From assembly GCF_030273445.1 (NCBI RefSeq), contig NZ_CP120678.1, forward strand, positions 845,501-909,500: a stretch of DNA of 64,000 bases, given 5' to 3'. Positions 13,033 through 63,914 of the stretch are shown in pieces. This DNA is from Selenobaculum gibii. Lineage in GTDB: Bacteria > Bacillota > Negativicutes > ICN-92133. The notes beneath the pieces were generated by a model. It saw only the letters and a program-made list of their open reading frames with translations, ran no database searches and was not told the DNA's origin. A program made the position numbers and the translations under genes. Each line of letters begins with the position of its first letter. Within the stretch, counting starts at the first letter, position 1.

Positions 13033-15573
13033 ATGATGAAAAAAATTTTTAATGTCATTGGCATGTCTTGTTCGGCCTGTTCGTCAAGTATAGGGAAGAC
13101 AGTACGTAGATTAGAAGGGGTAAAAGCGGTCAATGTAAATTTATTAACGAATACAATGCAGGTTGAATTTGATGAAAATGTTATTACAACGGGTGCGATT
13201 TGCCAGGCTGTGAAAGAAAGTGGGTATGGAGCAAATCTAGCAGATGGAAAAAAGTCAGCAAAAAATGAGAATACAGAAAAAGATATAGTAGAACAAATGT
13301 GGTTTCGATTAAAAAATTCTTTTTTATTCATGATTCCACTTATGTATATTTCTATGCATCATATGTTTACTTACCCACTTCCAGCGATATTTCATGGCAC
13401 TGAGAATGCAATTACGTATGCATTTTCACAATTTTTATTAACGTTACCAATTCTTTATGTAAATCGTAAATACTATATTGTTGGTTTTAAATCGCTACTA
13501 AGTGGACACCCCAATATGGACTCATTAATCGCTATTGGATCAGGTGCAGCATTTATCTATGGAGTTGGAGCAATTTTTGCAATTGGACATGGTCTGGGGA
13601 TTGGAGATTTTGAATATGTAAAACAATATATGGGGGATTTATACTTTGAATCTGCCGCGATGATTTTGACTTTAATTACTTTAGGAAAATATTTAGAGAC
13701 AAAATCAAAGCGCAAAACCTCTGAGGCAATTGAAAAACTATTGCAGTTGACACCGAAGCAAGCAACGGTTATTCGGGATGGAAAAGAAGTGGATTTATCT
13801 GTAGAGGAAATTATTGTCGGTGATATTGTGATTGTAAAGCCTGGACAAAGTATTGCTGTAGATGGAGTAATAACAAGTGGAACTTCATTTGTCGATGAAT
13901 CTATGCTTACTGGAGAAAGCCTTCCTGTTGAAAAGAATGTTGGAGACTTAGTAATTGCAGCTACTTTAAATAAATCTGGTGTATTTGAATTTAAAGCAAC
14001 AAAAGTAGGAAAAGATACAACATTGGCACAGATTATTCAATTGGTTGAGTCTGCGAGTGCAAGCAAAGCGCCTATTGCACGTTTAGCTGATAAAGTAAGC
14101 GGGATTTTTGTACCTGTTGTTATTGGTATTGCTATTTTATCCGCAGCAATATGGATTTTAGTTGGTGAGAGTATTACTTTTGCCTTATCGATAGGGATTG
14201 CTGTACTCGTTATTTCCTGCCCTTGTGCTTTAGGGCTTGCAACTCCTGTTGCAATTATGGTTGGTACAGGAAAAGGTGCGGAAAATGGAATTTTAATAAA
14301 ATCAGCAGAAAGCCTTGAATTGGCGCATAAAGTGTGTACAGTTGTACTTGATAAGACGGGGACAATTACGGAAGGAAAGCCCAGTATAACAGATATTGTT
14401 ACTTTTGGCTTCATGACAAAAATGGATTTATTGACGTTAGCCGCTAGTTTGGAGAAGAATTCAGAGCATCCACTTGCTCGAGCAATTTTAGAGTATGCTG
14501 AAGACTGGGCAATGCCGATAAACTCAGTGGAAAACTTCATGGCAATTTCTGGGTATGGTGTGAGTGGAAAAATAAAAGGCAAAATTTTTTATGGAGGAAA
14601 TTTACGGCTATTGAAAGAAAAAAGTATTTTTCAAGATGCTTTTGCCAAAGAAGGCGAAAAATTTGCTAAACAAGGCAAGACGCCATTATATTTCTTTGAT
14701 GATCATACGTTATTAGGGATTATTGCAGTTGCAGATGTAGTAAAGCCAAATAGTAAAATGGCAATTGATTCTTTAGTTAAATCGGGAATTGAAGTCATTA
14801 TGCTGACTGGTGATAATCAATCCACCGCAAAGGCGATTCAGTCGATCGTAGGTGTGCCAAAAGTTATTGCTGAAGTTTTGCCCCAAGATAAGGAAAAAGT
14901 AATCCGAGATTTACAAGCGGAAGGAAAAGTTGTCGCAATGGTAGGTGATGGAATCAATGACGCACCTGCACTAACACGTGCTGACGTTGGCATTGCAATT
15001 GGTGCGGGGACGGATATTGCCGTAGAGTCGGCAGACATTGTGTTAATGAAAAATGATTTACTTGATGTAGTGAATGCCATTGCGCTGAGTAAAGCGGTAA
15101 TTAAAAATATTAAACAAAATTTATTTTGGGCGTTTTTCTACAATTGTATTGGAATTCCACTTGCAGCGGGTGTATTTTTCACTTTGTGGGGACTAAAGTT
15201 AAATCCAATGTTTGGAGCGGCTGCGATGAGCTTAAGTTCTGTATGTGTAGTAAGTAACGCACTTAGATTAAAATTATTTAAATTTCAGGTAACAGAAAAA
15301 ATTTCTGTTTATCATATGAAAAATGAAAAGCCACGCGTAAAAAAAGGAGCGATACAAATGAAAAAAGTAATCACAATTGAAGGAATGATGTGCAAACATT
15401 GTCAAGGAAAAGTTGAAAAAATTCTCAAAGAAATTGATGGTGTAACAAACGTTGAAGTGAATTTAGAAGAAAAGACAGCGACGGTTATGATGGATAAGGT
15501 GATTGATGATCGATTATTGACTGAACCAATTGTCGATGCCGATTATGAAGTTTTAAACATTCAAGAAAAATAA
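13033..15573 (+). CDS. copA: Copper-exporting P1B-type ATPase with C-terminal CopZ-like domain
   Basis: A P-type ATPase of about 846 residues. Numbered from the in-frame ATG 13027, the N-terminal HMA domain has GMSCSAC (C15, C18). The TGES actuator motif follows, then CPC (398-400) in a membrane helix, the phosphorylated D442 in DKTGT, and GDGINDAP near 640. After the last helices an unusual second HMA domain (CKHC, 789-792) is joined by a short linker. It pumps Cu(I) out of the cytoplasm. In-frame ATGs lie at 13027, 13033 and 13036; AAGG at 13023-13026 is too near the first, so 13033 or 13036 is preferred. It is regulated through the adjacent CsoR operator. Confidence 0.9.
15358..15573 (+). 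CDS. copZ: Nested in-frame start for a free CopZ copper chaperone
   Basis: Within the 3' end of copA, AAAAGGAG at about 15341-15348 precedes ATG 15358 by a normal distance. The frame from there encodes a complete 71-residue HMA protein ([16 protein letters not shown] onward), the usual size of CopZ. The same bases thus can give both a copA-fused domain and a separate chaperone that would deliver Cu(I) to CopA and to CsoR. Alternatively an ancestral separate copZ lost the copA stop codon and is now only a domain. Confidence 0.55.
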
Positions 15574-55163: not shown

Positions 55164-55213
55164 AATCTTGTGGTATATTGTCGTCATTACCAAAGTCGAG
55201 GAGGAAAGAAATT

Positions 55214-56755
55214 TTGGAAAGTAAGCATCATGAAATGGTATTAATATTAGATTTCGGTGGTCAATATAATCAATTGATTGCCAGACGTGTAAGAGAATGT
55301 GGCGTTTATTGTGAAATAGTGCCTTATGATTATAGTATTGAAAAAATTAAAGCGAAAAATCCACGTGGTATTATTTTTACAGGTGGACCGAATAGCGTGT
55401 ATGGAGATGATACACCAAAAGCAGATCCACAAGTTTTTGAACTAGGAATTCCTGTACTTGGAATTTGTTATGGACACCAATTTATGGCATATACATTGGG
55501 CGGAGTAGTAGAAAGCCCAGATATTAGAGAATACGGAAAAACTGCAATTGCTTTAGATGGCGCATGCAAGTTATTTGAAGGAATTGATGCCGATAACGAA
55601 TGCTGGATGAGTCATACAGATTTTGTTTCTAAAGCACCAGCAGGCTTCAAAATTGTTGCAACTACGAAACAATGTCCAATTGCAGCAATGGCAAATAAAA
55701 CAAAAAAATTATATGGTGTACAATTCCATCCAGAAGTTGAACATACACCATATGGCAAAAAAATGTTGGCGAATTTCTTATTTGATGTTTGTGAATTAGA
55801 AGCAGATTGGAATATGTCTTCTTTTGCTGAGAGTAAAATCGCTGAAATTAAAAAAATCGTTGGCGATAAAAAAGTTTTATGTGCTTTATCCGGTGGTGTT
55901 GATTCCTCAGTTGCAGCAGTGCTTGTACATAAGGCTGTTGGTAAACAATTAACTTGTGTGTTCGTTGATCATGGCTTACTTAGAAAAGATGAGGGTGATC
56001 AAGTAGAGGCGATTTTTAGAGAACAATTCGATATGAACTTAATTCGTGTTGATGCAAAAGATCGTTTTCTTGGAAAACTTGCTGGGATATCTGATCCAGA
56101 GCGTAAACGTAAAATTATTGGTGAAGAATTCATTCGTGTATTTGAAGAAGAATCTAATAAACTTGGCAAAATTGATTTCCTAGTACAAGGTACAATTTAT
56201 CCAGACGTTGTTGAAAGTGGAACAAAAACCTCTGCGACAATTAAAAGTCATCATAACGTAGGTGGTTTGCCAGAAGATATGGATCTAGAATTGATTGAAC
56301 CACTTCGTGAATTGTTTAAAGATGAAGTTCGTGCGGTTGGTGAAGAATTGGGAATTCCACATCATTTAGTATGGCGTCAACCATTCCCAGGTCCAGGTCT
56401 TGCAATTCGTGTACTTGGTGAAATTACGGAAGAAAAACTATTTATCACGCGCGAAGCAGATGCAATCTTTAGAGATGAAGTTGCAAAAGCAGGCCTAGAA
56501 GGTAAGATATGGCAATACTTTGCTTGCTTGCCAAATATTCGTTCCGTAGGTGTTATGGGTGATGAAAGAACTTACTGTCACACAGTAGCACTAAGAGCAG
56601 TAACCAGTTCCGATGGAATGACTTCCGATTGGGCACATATTCCATACGAAGTATTAGATAAAATTTCCCGCCGTATCGTTAACGAAGTAAAAGGTGTAAA
56701 TAGAATTGTTTATGATATAACAAGTAAACCACCATCCACAATTGAGTGGGAGTAA
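55214..56755 (+). CDS. guaA: GMP synthase (glutamine-hydrolysing)
   Basis: A 513-residue two-domain enzyme. The glutaminase part has [11 protein letters not shown] and [11 protein letters not shown], the ATP-pyrophosphatase has [12 protein letters not shown], and the dimerisation domain ends KPPSTIEWE. It makes GMP from XMP. TTG 55214 follows GAGGAGG, while the frame is open to 55178. The tail is intact although mobile-element DNA begins six bases after the stop. Confidence 0.95.
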
Positions 56756-56760
56756 AATGA

Positions 56761-57012
56761 ATGTCGTAGGGCACTGCCATTTATGCTCCAAAGGGCAAAA
56801 TGGCTTAACCTGCCGACATAGAAAAAACGACCTTGCATTAAAGCTTTTCGAAGCTTGTGCAAGGTCATTTTTTTATCCTCAACCCGCGTAAATACAGGAA
56901 GTTCTGCTTGCTAAAAGAGGCGGGCACCATGGAGTGGCGGGCATTCCTGGCAAAGCCAGGGAGAATACAGGAAAATGCCCTTTGGAGAATAAATGGCAGT
57001 GCCCCACGACAT
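56761..57012. mobile_element. 252-bp unit with 37-bp inverted terminal repeats, beside guaA
   Basis: The left repeat 56761-56797 (ATGTCGTAGGGCACTGCC at its start) and the right repeat 56976-57012 match at 35 of 37 positions in inverted orientation. The left repeat is also half of a 59-bp imperfect palindrome ending TGCCGACAT at 56819, with GCCATTT/AAATGGC inside. The TGTCG...CGACA termini recall the TGT...ACA ends of Tn7-like elements. No coding frame of note lies within. No clear target duplication flanks it. It may be a transposon end, a MITE or a palindromic repeat pair. Confidence 0.6.
56829..56874 (+). terminator. Intrinsic terminator downstream of guaA
   Basis: GACCTTGCA (56829-56837) pairs with TGCAAGGTC (56858-56866), with AAGCTT/AAGCTT and a TTCG loop inside, followed by ATTTTTTT. 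It lies within the 252-bp inverted-repeat unit. Confidence 0.85.
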
Positions 57013-57236
57013 GGTGATGTTTTCTTTTATGCTTTTTGGCAAAAAGCATAGCGCTATGACTTTCATGAACATTGGCTTGAACGCCCGTAACATAGGGGAG
57101 AGTATATTCATGATTTTCTGTTTCCCAAAAACCGAGTCTCCAATTCCCCCAAAACCGCCCATTTTCATTTTTGGGCGCGTTTTTGGGAAAATGGAGTCAA
57201 GCAGCAGAGCGTTCCTAATATGGAGGTTTTGCAAAG
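57013..57236. repeat. Hairpin-rich DNA upstream of the Tn7-like remnant
   Basis: ATGCTTTTT pairs with AAAAAGCAT at 57029-57049. TTTCCCAAAAAC (57121-57132) pairs with its exact complement at 57179-57190, and CGCCCA (57146-57151) with TGGGCG (57172-57177) inside. GGCGGGCA also recurs at 56920 and 56936 just upstream. Transposase-binding ends of Tn7-like elements carry such repeats, but no regular array was recognised. Confidence 0.5.
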
Positions 57237-58484
57237 GTGAGGAAGAAAAATTTTAAAGGTCGTTGTGAAAAACGTGTCATTGCAAAGTGCAATGAAGTAT
57301 GCAGGACATACGATGCGATCCAGTATGTCTATGCAGATATTCTGCAAGCAAGTGATGAAGTAAAAGAAATCAGGTGCAATGTCCCGCTTAATGGGCGGGA
57401 CATTAGCGAATACACATCGGATTTTGTCTGCGTCAAGTCTGACAATGATTTGATGGTGCGTGAATGTGTGTTCCGCAAGTTTCTGATGAAGGCACTTACG
57501 GTCAAGCTGCTGGATGCTTCAAGGGAATACTGGTTAAGGCATGGGGTCACCGATTGGGGGTTAGTCATTGATGAGAAAAATGATTTGTTGAAGGACGGTG
57601 ACAACATTATCAGGGTTTTAGAGGTAAAGCCTGATAAAATCCTCATTATCGACTGCATCAAAAGGACTATGCCCGTATGGGTGGAATCTTCGGCTTTGGA
57701 TTCCTTCTCTTGCTGCACTGATGAAGTACTGAACCAGGCTACAAATTTTATCGTCACCGATATTGAAAATCTAAATGCTAATCAGAAAAGAATCATGTTT
57801 GAGCGTTATACATTAATTGCATCAATTTTCCCTTTTGTAGCAGAGGAAAGAATGCGTTCAAAAGTTATCGATTCTATAGATACAGAACACAACATATCTA
57901 AGCAGACCATCAGAAACTATTTATGCTTGTATTTGGTCTATATGAATATAATAGTCCTTGCCCCAAGGCAACGGCTAGACGATGATGGAAAGCTTACACA
58001 AGATGAAAAAAACATACGATGGGCTTTGAACAAATTCTTCTATACCACGAAAAAGCAATCACTTATGACTGCTTATACCATGATGCTGAAAGAGAAGTAT
58101 TGTGATAGTATGGATATTCTAGCAAACCAATACCCGTCTTTTTATCAATTTCGTTACTTCTACCGTAAAACAAAAAAGATGCAGAACTTCTATATTTCCA
58201 GAGATGGATTGAAGAGTTACCAGAGAAATAACAAGCCTCTTATTGGTGATAGCATACGGTCGTTTGCTCCTGCTATTGGCGCTGGTATGCTGTATTCTAC
58301 TATACTTGTTCAGAACGAACATATACATTTCCACCCCAGTGGTGATGCGCTGCCAATCCAAGAAGACATTACTATCATTAGAAAACTGGTCGAAGCAGGT
58401 AAGTTACTGGATATTAACATTTTGGACCATATTATTATCGGTAAGGGGAATTTTGAGAGTTTAAAAGAGCGAGGAATCTTGTGA
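57237..58484 (+). pseudogene. Chimeric remnant: Tn7-like TnsA/TnsB N-terminus joined to RadC C-terminus
   Basis: An open frame of 415 codons from GTG 57237 (GGAGGT at 57222-57227). Residues 1-114 resemble the TnsA endonuclease core of Clostridial Tn7-like elements: EYTSDF with D62, VRECVFRKFLMKALTVKLLDAS. Residues 115-345 resemble the DNA-binding part of TnsB (KILIIDCIKRTMPVWV, YPSFYQFRYFYRKTKK) and stop where the DDE catalytic domain should begin. Residues 350-415 are the end of a RadC/JAB protein: HPSGD at 366-370, then RKLVEAGKLLDINILDHIIIG. The join implies an internal deletion. The frame is open but unlikely to transpose. Confidence 0.7.
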
Positions 58485-59503: not shown

Positions 59504-60871
59504 GTGGAATACAATGAAATTTTAGCGATGCAGAAAAATTTTTTTTATTCCGGTAAAACCAAGACGTATCAATACAGGCTGGATGCGTTAAAGGCGCTGA
59601 GGGAATCCCTAATTTATTATGAAGAAGAAATCAACCAAGCGCTTATGGACGATTTAAACAAATCGCCATATGAAACTTATATTTCTGAATACGGCATATC
59701 GCTGCAGCAGCTTACTTACGCAACCCGTCACCTGAAAAAATGGATGAAGCCAATACCCAGATCGGTTGGAATCAATTCATTTCCTGGCAAGGCTTATGAC
59801 ATCTTTGAGCCTTATGGCACAGCCCTCATCGTATCGTCTTGGAATTATCCCATTACACTGACCATCTTACCGCTAATCGGCGCTATAGCAGCGGGTAACT
59901 GCTGTGTCATTAAGCTGTCAGAATTGTCGCCGAACACATCAAACGTAGTCGAAAAGATTGTGGCACGCGCCTTTCCGAAAGAATATGTCACCACCATATT
60001 AGGTGGAAAAGAGGAAAGCCAGCAGCTTCTCGAACAGCGTTTTGATTACATCTTTTTTACCGGAAGCACCGCAGTAGGTAAGTATGTGATGGAAAAAGCG
60101 GCACAGCATCTTACTCCGGTGACACTTGAATTGGGTGGTAAATGCCCGTGTATCGTGACTGCCGATGCCGATATACGGGAGGCGGCAAAAAACATAGCGT
60201 ATGGCAAAGTTCTCAATAGCGGACAGACTTGTACCGCTCCGGATTACGTGTTGGTGTATGAAAAAGTAGCGGAACAGTTTTGCAGAGAAATTACAAATCA
60301 ATATAAAAAGATGGTTGGGGATTCGCTTACAAATCCGGTATATCCGCGCATTGTAACTGAAAGACACTTTGAACGGCTTCGACGCCTCATGGAAGAGGGA
60401 ACGGTTTATAGTGGAGGACATTTTGATCAAGGAGCGTTGAAAATAGAACCGACCGTCCTGGTCGATGTGAAGCCTGATTCTCCCGTGATGCGCGAAGAAA
60501 TATTCGGTCCCCTCCTCCCAGTCATTCCCTATAGCACGCTGGACGAGGCGGAGACATTTGTACAAGAGAGGGAAAAGCCGCTGGCGCTCTATCTCTTTAC
60601 AACAAGCAAAAGCACAGAAATAAGAGTACTTAACAAACTCTCCTTTGGCGGAGGCTGTGTAAATGACACGATTTCCCACATGACCTGCGATGGTCTGGGG
60701 TTTGGCGGGATCGGCCACAGCGGCATGGGAACGTACCACGGTGTATATAGCTTTGAGGCCTTCAGCCACAAGAAAGGGATTTATAAAAAATCCAGGGTGT
60801 TTGGGCTGTCGCTGCGATACCAGCCATATGCCCAGAAAGTAAGCAGGCTGCTTAGGTTCTTGATGAAATAA
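59504..60871 (+). CDS. Aldehyde dehydrogenase (fatty/coniferyl aldehyde type)
   Basis: A 455-residue NAD(P)-dependent ALDH. Catalytic C243 is in NSGQTCTAPDYV, the general base E209 in LELGGKCP, and cofactor-site FTGSTAVGK precedes them. The closing segment FGGIGHSGMGTYHG is typical of class 3 enzymes with broad aldehyde range. GTG 59504 follows AAAGGTGAGG. G+C is visibly higher than in the chromosomal core. It opens a set of three redox genes behind the TetR gene. Confidence 0.9.
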   Translation: MEYNEILAMQKNFFYSGKTKTYQYRLDALKALRESLIYYEEEINQALMDDLNKSPYETYISEYGISLQQLTYATRHLKKWMKPIPRSVGINSFPGKAYDIFEPYGTALIVSSWNYPITLTILPLIGAIAAGNCCVIKLSELSPNTSNVVEKIVARAFPKEYVTTILGGKEESQQLLEQRFDYIFFTGSTAVGKYVMEKAAQHLTPVTLELGGKCPCIVTADADIREAAKNIAYGKVLNSGQTCTAPDYVLVYEKVAEQFCREITNQYKKMVGDSLTNPVYPRIVTERHFERLRRLMEEGTVYSGGHFDQGALKIEPTVLVDVKPDSPVMREEIFGPLLPVIPYSTLDEAETFVQEREKPLALYLFTTSKSTEIRVLNKLSFGGGCVNDTISHMTCDGLGFGGIGHSGMGTYHGVYSFEAFSHKKGIYKKSRVFGLSLRYQPYAQKVSRLLRFLMK

Positions 60872-60916
60872 GTGTAAATTCGTATTTCAAAAACAAACAG
60901 AAAAGAGGGTAAAGGG

Positions 60917-63031
60917 ATGAGGTATCCAAATTTATTTTCACCCATGAATATTGGTTCAGTGACCATCAAAAACCGAATTGTGATGTCCTCCATGTGCATT
61001 GGATTGGCGGCGCATGACGGCGCGGCGAGCAAAGAATTATCCGACTATTATGAAGAACGCGCCGCCGGAGGCGTGGGTCTTATCATGACAGAATGTACCC
61101 GCGTCAATGAGACGGATTGCGTGTCCCATTCTAGCATGTTATCCATGTCACACGACAGATATATTGAGCCGTTTCGCAGAATCACGGAAAAGGTGCATGC
61201 CCATGGCACTAAGATTTTTGTTCAATTGTTTCATCCCGGTCGGCAAAACGTGGTTATTTTCCCAACGCTGTGGCAATTCAATGAGAGAGTTGCAAGGATT
61301 TTTCCTCCATATTGGGATTTATTTTTTAAAGCCACCGGTAGCTTTGATGAATCCGCCATGGAAGATCCCAAAACCGTGAAGCGGATGAAGCGCTATATGA
61401 AGCCGCTCCTTGCACCAAGCGCTGTTCCTTGTGGCCTTGGTGACAATCCTATTCGTAATCAAACTACCATTGCCATGACAATACCTCAGATTAAAACACT
61501 GGTCAGCCAGTTTTCCGCCGCTGCGAAACGGGCGAAAAAAGCCGGAGCCGATGGCGTGGAGCTACACGCTGCCCATGGATATTTGCTGCAGCAGTTTTTA
61601 AGTTCCTACACTAACCGTCGTACGGATGAATACGGTGGCTCTCCGGAAAACCGGATGCGACTCATTCAGGAGATTATAGAGGACATCCGCCAAAAGTGCG
61701 GGGCTGATTTTCCCATCAGTGTGCGATTGACAGCAGATGAGTTCTATGACACGATTGGTTATCCCGGTCAAGGGATCACCTTGGGTGAGGGCGTAGAGAT
61801 TGCGAAACGGCTGGAGCAGTTCGGAATTGACGCGCTCAATATCAGCAGCGGCGCTTACGATACGGAGCACACCTCCTGCGAACCAATCAGCTATGAACCC
61901 GGCTGGCGCAAGTATTTGGCGAAAGCTGTTAAGGGAGAGGTCAGCATTCCGGTAATGGCGGCTAATTTGATCCGCTCTCCGGAACAGGCGGAAGCGCAGC
62001 TCGTGGAAGGAACCCAAGACTTCATCGCCATGGGGCGGCCTTTCCTCGCTGACCCTGAATGGTCCAATAAAGCGAAGGAGGGGCGCAGCGAGGATATCCT
62101 TAAGTGTATTTGCTGCCTGCGTTGTATGGAATGTTTACGTAAAAACATCATGAACGGCCAGCCGATTGAATGTGCCGTCAATCCCCGCACCTGTCAGGAA
62201 AATAAATATGAACGCAATGCACCGAAAGATGGTCATCAGCGGCAGATCGTCATTGTGGGCGCTGGCCCGGCGGGCTTAACAGCGGCAAGAGAACTGGCGG
62301 CGCGGGACTTCAAGGTAACCGTACTGGAAAAGAATGCAGAACCCGGCGGTCAGCTTCTCTTGGCGAAATCGCCGCCGCATAAGGAGAAAATCGGTTGGCT
62401 CATTGAGGGATTAACCCATTTGGCAACTCAGCAGGGTGTAACAATTGAGTACAATATCGAAGCCACCAAAGAAGTTATTGATACGTATCATCCCCATGCC
62501 GTGATCTTCGCAACCGGCGGAGAGGCAATCTCACCGAGAATATCGGGATCAGAATCAGAATCGGTTGTCACGGTGACGCCGATTTTGACAGGGGAAAAAA
62601 CCTACTCCAATAAGAAGATTGCCGTTGTCGGCTCCGGTATGACCGGGCTGGAGACAGCGGAATTACTGTTGGAACAAGGGAATACCATCACTGTAATTGA
62701 GATGGTGGATAAAATCGCTCTCGGCGCACATCCTTCTAACTCTATGGATGTAGTTAAAAGATTAAAACAGGGGAATGTTAGATTTTTCCTTGGCAGGCGG
62801 TTGGATCAAATCGACGATGGCATGCTGCACCTGAGCCGGAAAGACGGCGTTCTTGAATCAATCAGTACGGATGTGACGGTGCTTGCCACTGGTGTACGTA
62901 GTTGCAACAGGCTGGCAAAGGAATGCTTCGGCCATTATGATCATCTTTATACCATCGGCGACGCAGAAAAAACCGGACGCATCGGCGACGCGACTCGCGG
63001 AGCTTTCGAGCTGGCACGCTCTTTACATTGA
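60917..63031 (+). CDS. Old-yellow-enzyme/2,4-dienoyl-CoA reductase-type iron-sulfur flavoprotein
   Basis: 704 residues. An FMN TIM barrel (about 1-380) starts NLFSPMNIGSVTIKNRIVMSS and has ELHAAHGYLLQQFLS. The 4Fe-4S cysteines lie in CICCLRCMECLRKN (C397-C406). An FAD domain begins VIVGAGPAGLTAARE near 445, and an NAD(P) domain has AVVGSGMTGLETAELL near 572. The family reduces conjugated enoyl or enal compounds. A segment at about 112-150 (LWQFNERVARIFPPYWD) looks like an insertion relative to FadH. The ribosome site is AAAGGG before ATG 60917. It is about half G+C, unlike its chromosomal surroundings. Confidence 0.88.
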   Translation: MRYPNLFSPMNIGSVTIKNRIVMSSMCIGLAAHDGAASKELSDYYEERAAGGVGLIMTECTRVNETDCVSHSSMLSMSHDRYIEPFRRITEKVHAHGTKIFVQLFHPGRQNVVIFPTLWQFNERVARIFPPYWDLFFKATGSFDESAMEDPKTVKRMKRYMKPLLAPSAVPCGLGDNPIRNQTTIAMTIPQIKTLVSQFSAAAKRAKKAGADGVELHAAHGYLLQQFLSSYTNRRTDEYGGSPENRMRLIQEIIEDIRQKCGADFPISVRLTADEFYDTIGYPGQGITLGEGVEIAKRLEQFGIDALNISSGAYDTEHTSCEPISYEPGWRKYLAKAVKGEVSIPVMAANLIRSPEQAEAQLVEGTQDFIAMGRPFLADPEWSNKAKEGRSEDILKCICCLRCMECLRKNIMNGQPIECAVNPRTCQENKYERNAPKDGHQRQIVIVGAGPAGLTAARELAARDFKVTVLEKNAEPGGQLLLAKSPPHKEKIGWLIEGLTHLATQQGVTIEYNIEATKEVIDTYHPHAVIFATGGEAISPRISGSESESVVTVTPILTGEKTYSNKKIAVVGSGMTGLETAELLLEQGNTITVIEMVDKIALGAHPSNSMDVVKRLKQGNVRFFLGRRLDQIDDGMLHLSRKDGVLESISTDVTVLATGVRSCNRLAKECFGHYDHLYTIGDAEKTGRIGDATRGAFELARSLH

Positions 63032-63119
63032 TGTTACCCATAATCGTGAATTATTTGGAAAAATGAAAAAGCTGGTAGTTGACATCGAAATAGTAATGAA
63101 TCATTTGGAGGAATAAGAA

Positions 63120-63914
63120 ATGTCAGATTGTATTCGAATTGATAAAGCCGCTTGCATTGGCTGTGGAATGTGCGTGAAGGATTGTCCGCACCATGCCATT
63201 GTTTTGAAGGATAAAATAGCTGAAATGAAACTTGATCGTTGCATGGAATGCGGTCACTGCGTTGCGGTCTGTCCAAAAGCTGCCGTCAGCATGAATGGCT
63301 ATGCTATGGACGAGGTAAAAGAATATGATAGGGATACTTTTACCATCGCGCCTGAAACCTTCCTCAATAACATAAAGTTCAGACGCTCCATCAGGCATTA
63401 TAAGAATATGCCTGTAGAACATGAAAAAATCATGCAGATAATTGATGCTGGAAGGTACACCCCTACGGGAAGCAATAAGCAGCGGATACGTTATGTTGTT
63501 GCTGAACACCCGGAGGATAATATCGAAAAGGACGCAATCATAACCTTTCGGAAGATAAAGTCCGTAACCGATGTGGTTGGTAAATTCATTAAGTTACCGA
63601 TTGATACGAGAAAATATCAAGTTGATAAAGGGTTTTTCTTCCAGGGGGCGCCAACAGCTATTTTTGTAATATCCGATGATACGGTCGATGCTGCATTGGC
63701 TTCAACAAATATGGGTACTATGGCTGAATCACTTGGTCTTGGTGTATTATATGTTGGATTCTTTGTACGAGCTGCACGAATAAATAAAACTATCCGCAAA
63801 AAGCTATCGATTACAGGGAAAGAACGATTGGTAACTGCTATTGCTATTGGCTATCCTGATGCTCATTACAAGCGGACTGTTCCGAGAAAACCAGCAAAAG
63901 TGCAATGGCTGTAA
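63120..63914 (+). CDS. Ferredoxin-nitroreductase fusion protein
   Basis: 264 residues. The N-terminal 2[4Fe-4S] ferredoxin has CIGCGMCVKDCP and CMECGHCVAVCP. The nitroreductase FMN domain begins RRSIRHYKNMPVEHEKI with PTGSNKQ. It likely takes electrons through its own clusters and reduces nitro or enone compounds. GGAGGAATAAGAA precedes ATG 63120. It is the third gene of the redox block. The 88 bases before it hold a short open frame (ending NHLEE) that I cannot assign. Confidence 0.88.
   Translation: MSDCIRIDKAACIGCGMCVKDCPHHAIVLKDKIAEMKLDRCMECGHCVAVCPKAAVSMNGYAMDEVKEYDRDTFTIAPETFLNNIKFRRSIRHYKNMPVEHEKIMQIIDAGRYTPTGSNKQRIRYVVAEHPEDNIEKDAIITFRKIKSVTDVVGKFIKLPIDTRKYQVDKGFFFQGAPTAIFVISDDTVDAALASTNMGTMAESLGLGVLYVGFFVRAARINKTIRKKLSITGKERLVTAIAIGYPDAHYKRTVPRKPAKVQWL

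Follow-up and report, generated by a model that had tools for sequence, protein, structure and literature searches.

Direct 250-bp end blocks in relatives of a decayed Tn7-like element behind guaA in Selenobaculum gibii suggest insertion by end-block copying

The block behind guaA and the decayed element beside it

The window analyzed here is the whole 64,000-nucleotide stretch at positions 845501-909500 of the 2.68-Mb single-contig genome of Selenobaculum gibii (labeled G000). Directly behind guaA lies a block with inverted arms, followed by a conserved edge and a run of broken genes (Table 1). A preliminary description, made from the letters alone, had reported 37-bp inverted repeats with 35 matches and TGTCG ends, a gap of six bases between guaA and the repeats, and a 59-bp palindrome around the left repeat. 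All of this is borne out, the palindrome by RNA folding, with the refinement that the block proper measures 250 bp. The two arms are separated by 178 nt. When the region was shuffled 60 times with its dinucleotides preserved, no 37-mer inverted repeat exceeded 24 of 37 matches.

Table 1. Features at the 3' end of guaA, in window coordinates
Feature	Position	Strand	Remarks
guaA (GMP synthase)	55178..56755	+	ORF list, start as given there; 3' end is the attachment gene
Left target duplication	56757..56761		ATGAA
Proximal end block	56762..57011		250 bp, TGTCG...CGACA
Left arm	56761..56797	+	37 nt
Right (inner) arm	56976..57012	-	37 nt, 35/37 complementary to left arm (95%)
Palindrome enclosing left arm	56761..56819		59 bp; RNA fold -27.4 kcal/mol, z -5.57
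Terminator-like hairpin inside block	56822..56873		Folded as 56815-56880; T runs on both strands; z -6.46 and -5.41
Inner edge between block and tnsA (coreL)	57012..57236	+	225 bp; 14 other genomes align along most of it at 82-92% identity
tnsA-like stretch	57237..57581	+	115 aa; E63 and K132 equivalents are Q29 and V78
tnsB, N-terminal part only	57582..58310	+	In-frame fusion to tnsA
RadC C-terminal tail	58323..58484	+	Fused to broken tnsB; Pfam RadC E 1.4e-14

The terminator that had been assigned to guaA within the repeats requires a different reading. The hairpin itself is strong on both strands, and it is absent from the output of a simple consensus terminator scan; it belongs to the mobile block and is not guaA's own terminator. 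Many relatives without the block have another hairpin directly 3' of guaA, as judged by eye, and at filled sites a native guaA-terminator-like sequence is found past the far end of the element. No Rfam family matched at gathering score in the 19.9 kb of L009.

Remnants of tnsA and tnsB begin 225 bp beyond the block, and a single ORF (57237-58484) joins tnsA to the beginning of tnsB and ends in the C-terminal 51 residues of a RadC protein. As a related element (in G304) encodes an intact RadC, a deletion inside the element would explain this fusion, which probably arose in that way. Among the ORFs of the island stretch in this genome there are no tnsC or tniQ homologues, and the element is dead, its tnsB being truncated and fused to radC. 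The block behind guaA is the guaA-proximal end of a Tn7-like element, now decayed, for which the 3' end of guaA serves as attachment site.

A genome-wide search returned three copies of the block, all within the guaA-purE interval. Besides the copy in Table 1, these are a truncated second copy (909746-909952) and a full third copy (916117-916394), both past the end of the window and both preceded by the edge AAGGTCGAGGATACTA. The outermost flanks of copies 1 and 3, ATGAA and TGAAA, miss a perfect duplication by one base. The island also carries redox enzymes (window 59504-63914) and a duplicated nitroreductase-like gene segment (L009:12226-12597 and 13485-13856, 96.5% identity). Self-comparison additionally revealed closely packed, imperfect repeats that recur about every 67 bases at L010:11186-12213 (about G000:C1:932586-933613).

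Related elements in the Negativicutes

The block is present, in a scattered manner, in 24 of 380 genomes of the class, including our own, and a tnsA-tnsB query matched in 16 of the 380. Both genes occur at high identity in 11 genomes besides our own, and the same 11 contain tnsC and tniQ homologues. An exact pattern search of named genomes gave nine stretches, from Pelosinus, Sporomusa, Pectinatus, and an uncultured Selenomonadales bacterium. The guaA protein was matched in 59 of 60 genomes searched, and the block starts 6 or 7 bp past the guaA stop in 18 genomes (G000, G064, G066, G067, G073, G074, G079, G081, G091, G140, G143, G146, G276, G277, G296, G298, G300, and G304). Exceptions to this spacing are G145 (109 bp), G347 (8 bp, decayed), G142 (6 bp with a rearranged left arm), and the rearranged G090 and G260. 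The sequence downstream of guaA differs between relatives rather than presenting the same neighbors throughout, and G072 has an empty guaA site corresponding to the filled site of G073. Decayed blocks in G066 (L107:10065-10190) and G347 (L111:4665-4794; both spans approximate) retain only the part through the hairpin, which fits with host use of the hairpin.

In intact relatives, genes for TnsA, TnsB, TnsC, and TniQ lie in elements that have a copy of the block at either end, the two copies in direct orientation. The order is guaA, block, the conserved 225-bp edge, and tnsA, continuing to the other conserved edge and a second block in the same orientation. This far-end edge is AAGGTCGAGGATACTA or a close variant, of which G090 keeps only the last bases. 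Since the blocks are direct, they do not form an ordinary pair of opposed transposon ends. The locus had earlier been proposed to be a leftover Tn7-like end pair or a nonautonomous element. The tns remnants uphold a Tn7-like end, and the direct blocks of the relatives do away with an opposed pair; the second proposal holds insofar as the block forms a unit of its own, found also singly and then flanked by a target duplication, and it is at the same time one end of a tns-encoding element.

As a separate observation, the far inner edge includes CAAGGTCGAGGATAC (L009:8231-8245 and 14602-14616), complementary both to the 5' arm of the hairpin and to the stretch behind the hairpin. Termination might be influenced by transcripts that enter the block from the far edge. 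As the leader mostly pairs better behind the hairpin than with its arm, an RNA switch of the leader-terminator type is mentioned here in passing and not proposed. The G304 element (L070:8745-12496) carries a UvrD-like helicase, DarT, and an ADP-ribosylglycohydrolase, likely defense cargo.

Both outer flanks could be read in ten elements (G000, G304, G300, G298, G073, G074, G296, G145, G140, and G276), and six of the ten have exact 5-bp target duplications: ATAAG in G304, AAAGA in G300 (at the outer edges of its array), AAAGA in G298, CAATA in G073, TAATA in G074, and CTAAA in G296. The two blocks share a contig only in G000, G304, G300, and G298; in G073, G074, G296, G064, G145, G140, and G276 they come from separate contigs and are matched solely through their common genome. 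The far flank of G064 is off its contig. Among the remaining four elements, the flanks of G140 and G276 mismatch, G000 is one base off, and G145 has a duplication of 107 bp. In the last case a 107-bp stretch behind guaA is found both before the proximal and after the distal block (L082:3711-3817 and L083:6698-6804), as if the ends had joined sites 107 bp apart on sister copies or an unequal exchange had taken place.

The two blocks of an element were compared in ten pairs, the flank-readable set minus G276 plus G064. Four pairs are near identical, namely, G074 (254/254), G298 (249/249), G296 (91/91, partial), and G064 (251/252), and six are diverged at 86.7 to 94.0% identity: G073 (235/250), G140 (224/240), G145 (230/252), G000 (228/251), G300 (223/250), and G304 (215/248). 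Between genomes, block identity has a median of 87.6% and a maximum of 97.1% (398 pairs, each with >200 compared sites). Identity within elements combined with divergence between them is the pattern of long terminal repeats and requires a copying step. Recent copying accounts for the near-identical pairs; for the six diverged ones, subsequent exchange with older lone blocks has to be assumed.

Blocks outside an element pair are found in several genomes. Two lie ahead of the element in G300; of these, one is bracketed by two copies of AAAGA, and TTAAAT comes after the other. The G079 assembly breaks within a block, leaving its two parts at separate contig ends, each bordered by TCCTT; as the tnsA-tnsB query had no match in this genome, the block is likely, though not certainly, a lone one. 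The block has the traits of a miniature inverted-repeat element (MITE), being short and noncoding, with inverted ends and a target duplication of its own, as seen for the lone block of G300 and, across contig ends, for that of G079. A collapsed block array in G091 has GAATA on both sides and a last arm that is cut short, and the blocks of G304 look mosaic by eye. Tandem blocks in G091 (L080:4277-4283, AAATGGC) and G140 (L099:834-840, AAACGGC), which belong to different families, share one fusion point, with 7 bases of overlap; these fusions are consistent with repeated deletion of the palindrome made by abutting arms.

The Tns proteins are recognizably of the Tn7 type. The G304 operon comprises tnsA, tnsB, tnsC (TniB/AAA), and tniQ; the TnsB of an intact relative matches Tn7 TnsB at E 2.5e-39, TniQ matches TnsD at E 6.5e-17, and the acidic residues of TnsB are kept, as judged by eye. 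TnsA is a dwarf: its 12 copies, 88 to 95% identical to the first of them, span 115 aa in 11 (our own copy continues into tnsB) and 106 in G145, and the C-terminal domain is missing. The protein was aligned to canonical TnsA from other genomes, one of which matches Tn7 TnsA (1F1Z) over 250 residues at E 4.1e-48. Glu63 is replaced by Gln (E63Q) and Lys132 by Val (K132V) in all 12 aligned copies, with Asp114 kept; these three residues we take to be the catalytic ones. Lacking two of the three, this TnsA is presumably inactive as an endonuclease. An AlphaFold2 model reached a pLDDT of 39.7.

The dwarf TnsA was not found in phage or plasmid records at E 0.01, and a full match among 398 genomes of the phylum came from our own genome only. 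Matches to TnsB in plasmid and phage records have at most 26% identity among those listed (8 of 3,917 for plasmids, 4 of 4 for phages). No resolvase is common to at least three genomes in the parts of 33 loci that were covered, most of which hold partial elements; single serine resolvases occur in G304 and L167.

Distant relatives in viral contigs

Block copies were not found in plasmid and phage records at E 1e-5, nor was the exact arm pattern in viral contigs, where relatives with changed arms do occur. Twelve loci at 51 to 75% identity came out of a search of viral contigs with the TnsB alignment. The distant TnsA proteins in these contigs repeat the substitutions, with Gln at the E63 site in 9 of 9 and Val or Ile at the K132 site in 10 of 10 readable rows. 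L163 and L173 each contain a 251-bp block whose arms are unlike the guaA type yet complementary (28/30 and 29/30), and L193, found by DNA pattern, has a 263-bp block with arms complementary at 28/30. The arm search gave no block in the other loci on which it was run, several of which start too near tnsA to hold one. The block of L173 lies 15 nt behind a gene that we read, from its protein, as pyruvate phosphate dikinase (ppdK), and in L193 the last codons of presumably the same gene precede the block.

The contigs G767 and G768 open with the right-hand part of a block and close with the left-hand part, as expected of an assembly broken at two identical copies. With the contig ends paired, the end parts are complementary at 34/37 in G767, and 0 of 2,000 shuffles were as good for G768. 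The arms of L163, L173, L193, G767, and G768 are thus changed but complementary, which means that the inner arm is kept. G768 (122.8 kb) encodes terminase, portal, and tail fiber proteins, endolysin, anaerobic ribonucleotide reductase, and a tyrosine integrase, and its phage genes may be cargo of the element. Two further candidates were set aside: G767 as a phage, with matches to phage families for only four of its nine proteins considered, a DNA ligase and three of unknown function, and G770 as a full prophage, as its far end enters genes read by eye as conjugation genes.

A single contig, L174, carries a phage reverse transcriptase, an endolysin gene, the far inner edge, a 214-bp block-like stretch with a hairpin, the near inner edge, tnsA, and tnsB. 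This order, read from the contig sequence, appears to be that expected of a circle or concatemer and not of an integrated copy. The arm search missed the L174 block, which was placed by eye from its edges, and its ends are weakly complementary and out of register (6 of 2,000 shuffles as good). L167 may have the same single-block form, less clearly. The L174 reverse transcriptase gene lies near a gene of unknown function (L174:3024-4202), possibly a phage diversity-generating retroelement.

Insertion by block copying, alternatives, and known systems

The direct end blocks suggest insertion by copying of the end block rather than by cutting out. From sequence comparison, we consider it rather probable that the block acts as a mini-transposon on a circular element, that replicative transposition integrates the whole circle, and that recombination leaves lone blocks. 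The block would be present once on the circular form, and TniQ would find guaA. We infer that both block ends are used jointly from the circle: with no functional TnsA present to release the 5' ends, TnsB would join both block ends to the target five bases apart, and replication would then copy the block. The product would be a cointegrate consisting of target duplication, block, whole circle, block, and target duplication. We further infer reversal, in which recombination between the blocks would later free the circle and leave one block, and restored guaA termination, in which the block hairpin would replace the terminator displaced by insertion. Inner arms that differ between lineages and are nevertheless maintained, as observed directly in the viral contigs, are what such a model needs. 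Several observations count against it: the diverged pairs, 6 of 10, are explained only through later recombination with older lone blocks; four elements depart from the duplication pattern (G140 and G276 without a match, G145 with 107 bp, and our own genome one base off); many block pairs span separate contigs; the covered parts of the elements have no resolvase common to three genomes; and the arms of the L174 block are weak.

A competing explanation, which we regard as unlikely, is composite cut-and-paste, in which the tns genes are by chance enclosed between two 250-bp nonautonomous Tn7-like units, mobility of the whole depends on its outermost ends, and the two units stay alike through gene conversion. 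The 5-bp duplications at the outer ends agree with it, and six diverged pairs out of ten would be expected without constant copying. It is harder to reconcile with a TnsA that lacks two of three catalytic residues in all aligned copies, with inner arms that are maintained and vary between lineages together with the outer arms, though only the outer arms would be needed, and with L174, which appears to join both inner edges by a single block, if one with weak arms.

It is improbable that the circle enters mainly in Campbell fashion, by homologous recombination at a resident lone block behind guaA, with transposition playing a minor part. Lone blocks are known in G079 and G300, and the two mosaic-looking blocks of G304 would suit such exchange. 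The placement of the first block is left unexplained, however; identical pairs would demand a resident block identical to the incoming one, and the empty site of G072 against the filled site of G073 represents insertion at a site without a block in a close relative. An ordinary REP-like (or BIME) or terminator repeat with no link to mobility can be dismissed: despite the strong hairpin with T runs on both strands, dispersed copies would be expected in large number, and the genome search gave three, confined to one island, with target duplications and tns genes alongside and a scattered occurrence across the class.

Insertion by block copying leads to a wider hypothesis, plausible but put forward tentatively, for the whole element family, large temperate phages included. 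Its members may use Tn7-type machinery with a disabled TnsA as a system of site-specific integration, in which the mini-transposon of about 250 bp would be the attachment site of the circle and would be duplicated replicatively, so that the cointegrate, normally transient, would become the stable integrated state. If true, this would be a Tn7-like system with the cointegrate as its purpose and not its by-product, and it would provide bacteria, and perhaps phages, with gene-specific integration of whole circles without a site-specific recombinase. It makes testable what becomes of Tn7-type elements once TnsA dies and there is no dedicated resolvase. Because each end holds both orientations, boundary callers that seek opposed ends may misplace such elements.

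The comparison with known systems places the family close to Tn7. Shared with Tn7 and Tn7-like elements are the TnsB, TnsC, and TniQ homologues, the 5-bp duplication, insertion just behind a conserved gene, and the TGT...ACA ends that are also those of Tn7. The differences are the direct 250-bp end repeats, each with its own inverted arms, the short TnsA (about 115 aa), in which two catalytic residues are replaced, and the location of the tns genes outside the smallest end-bounded unit. Mu is a transposable phage, and some relatives of the tns module likewise share their contigs with phage genes for terminase, portal, tail, and lysis functions; unlike Mu, the guaA- and ppdK-type members insert behind a fixed gene and have a block at both ends. 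The portions of the open-access literature consulted contain neither a guaA attachment site of a Tn7-like element nor a Tn7-like element with direct terminal repeats; one further paper, PMC8239412, includes the terms "guaA" and "Tn7-like".

A TnsA protein is, according to passages in PMC8649781, not present in all Tn7-like elements, and passages there and in PMC11406308 name Tn5053/Tn402 and the type V-K CASTs as Tn7 relatives without it. Replicative transposition via cointegrates, which those passages give as shown for V-K, would be shared with the elements described here. The tns genes of these relatives lie inside the ends, whereas here they form the backbone, and the cointegrate would be the stable form. 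A parallel to the proposed integration is found in PMC6350997 on the IS26 translocatable unit and a 210-kb composite transposon of Burkholderia, where a circle with one repeat gives an integrated form between two direct repeats, as our model would have it. The repeat of the IS26 unit is an insertion sequence that encodes its transposase; here it is a 250-bp noncoding block, with the tns genes outside it and integration at a fixed gene.
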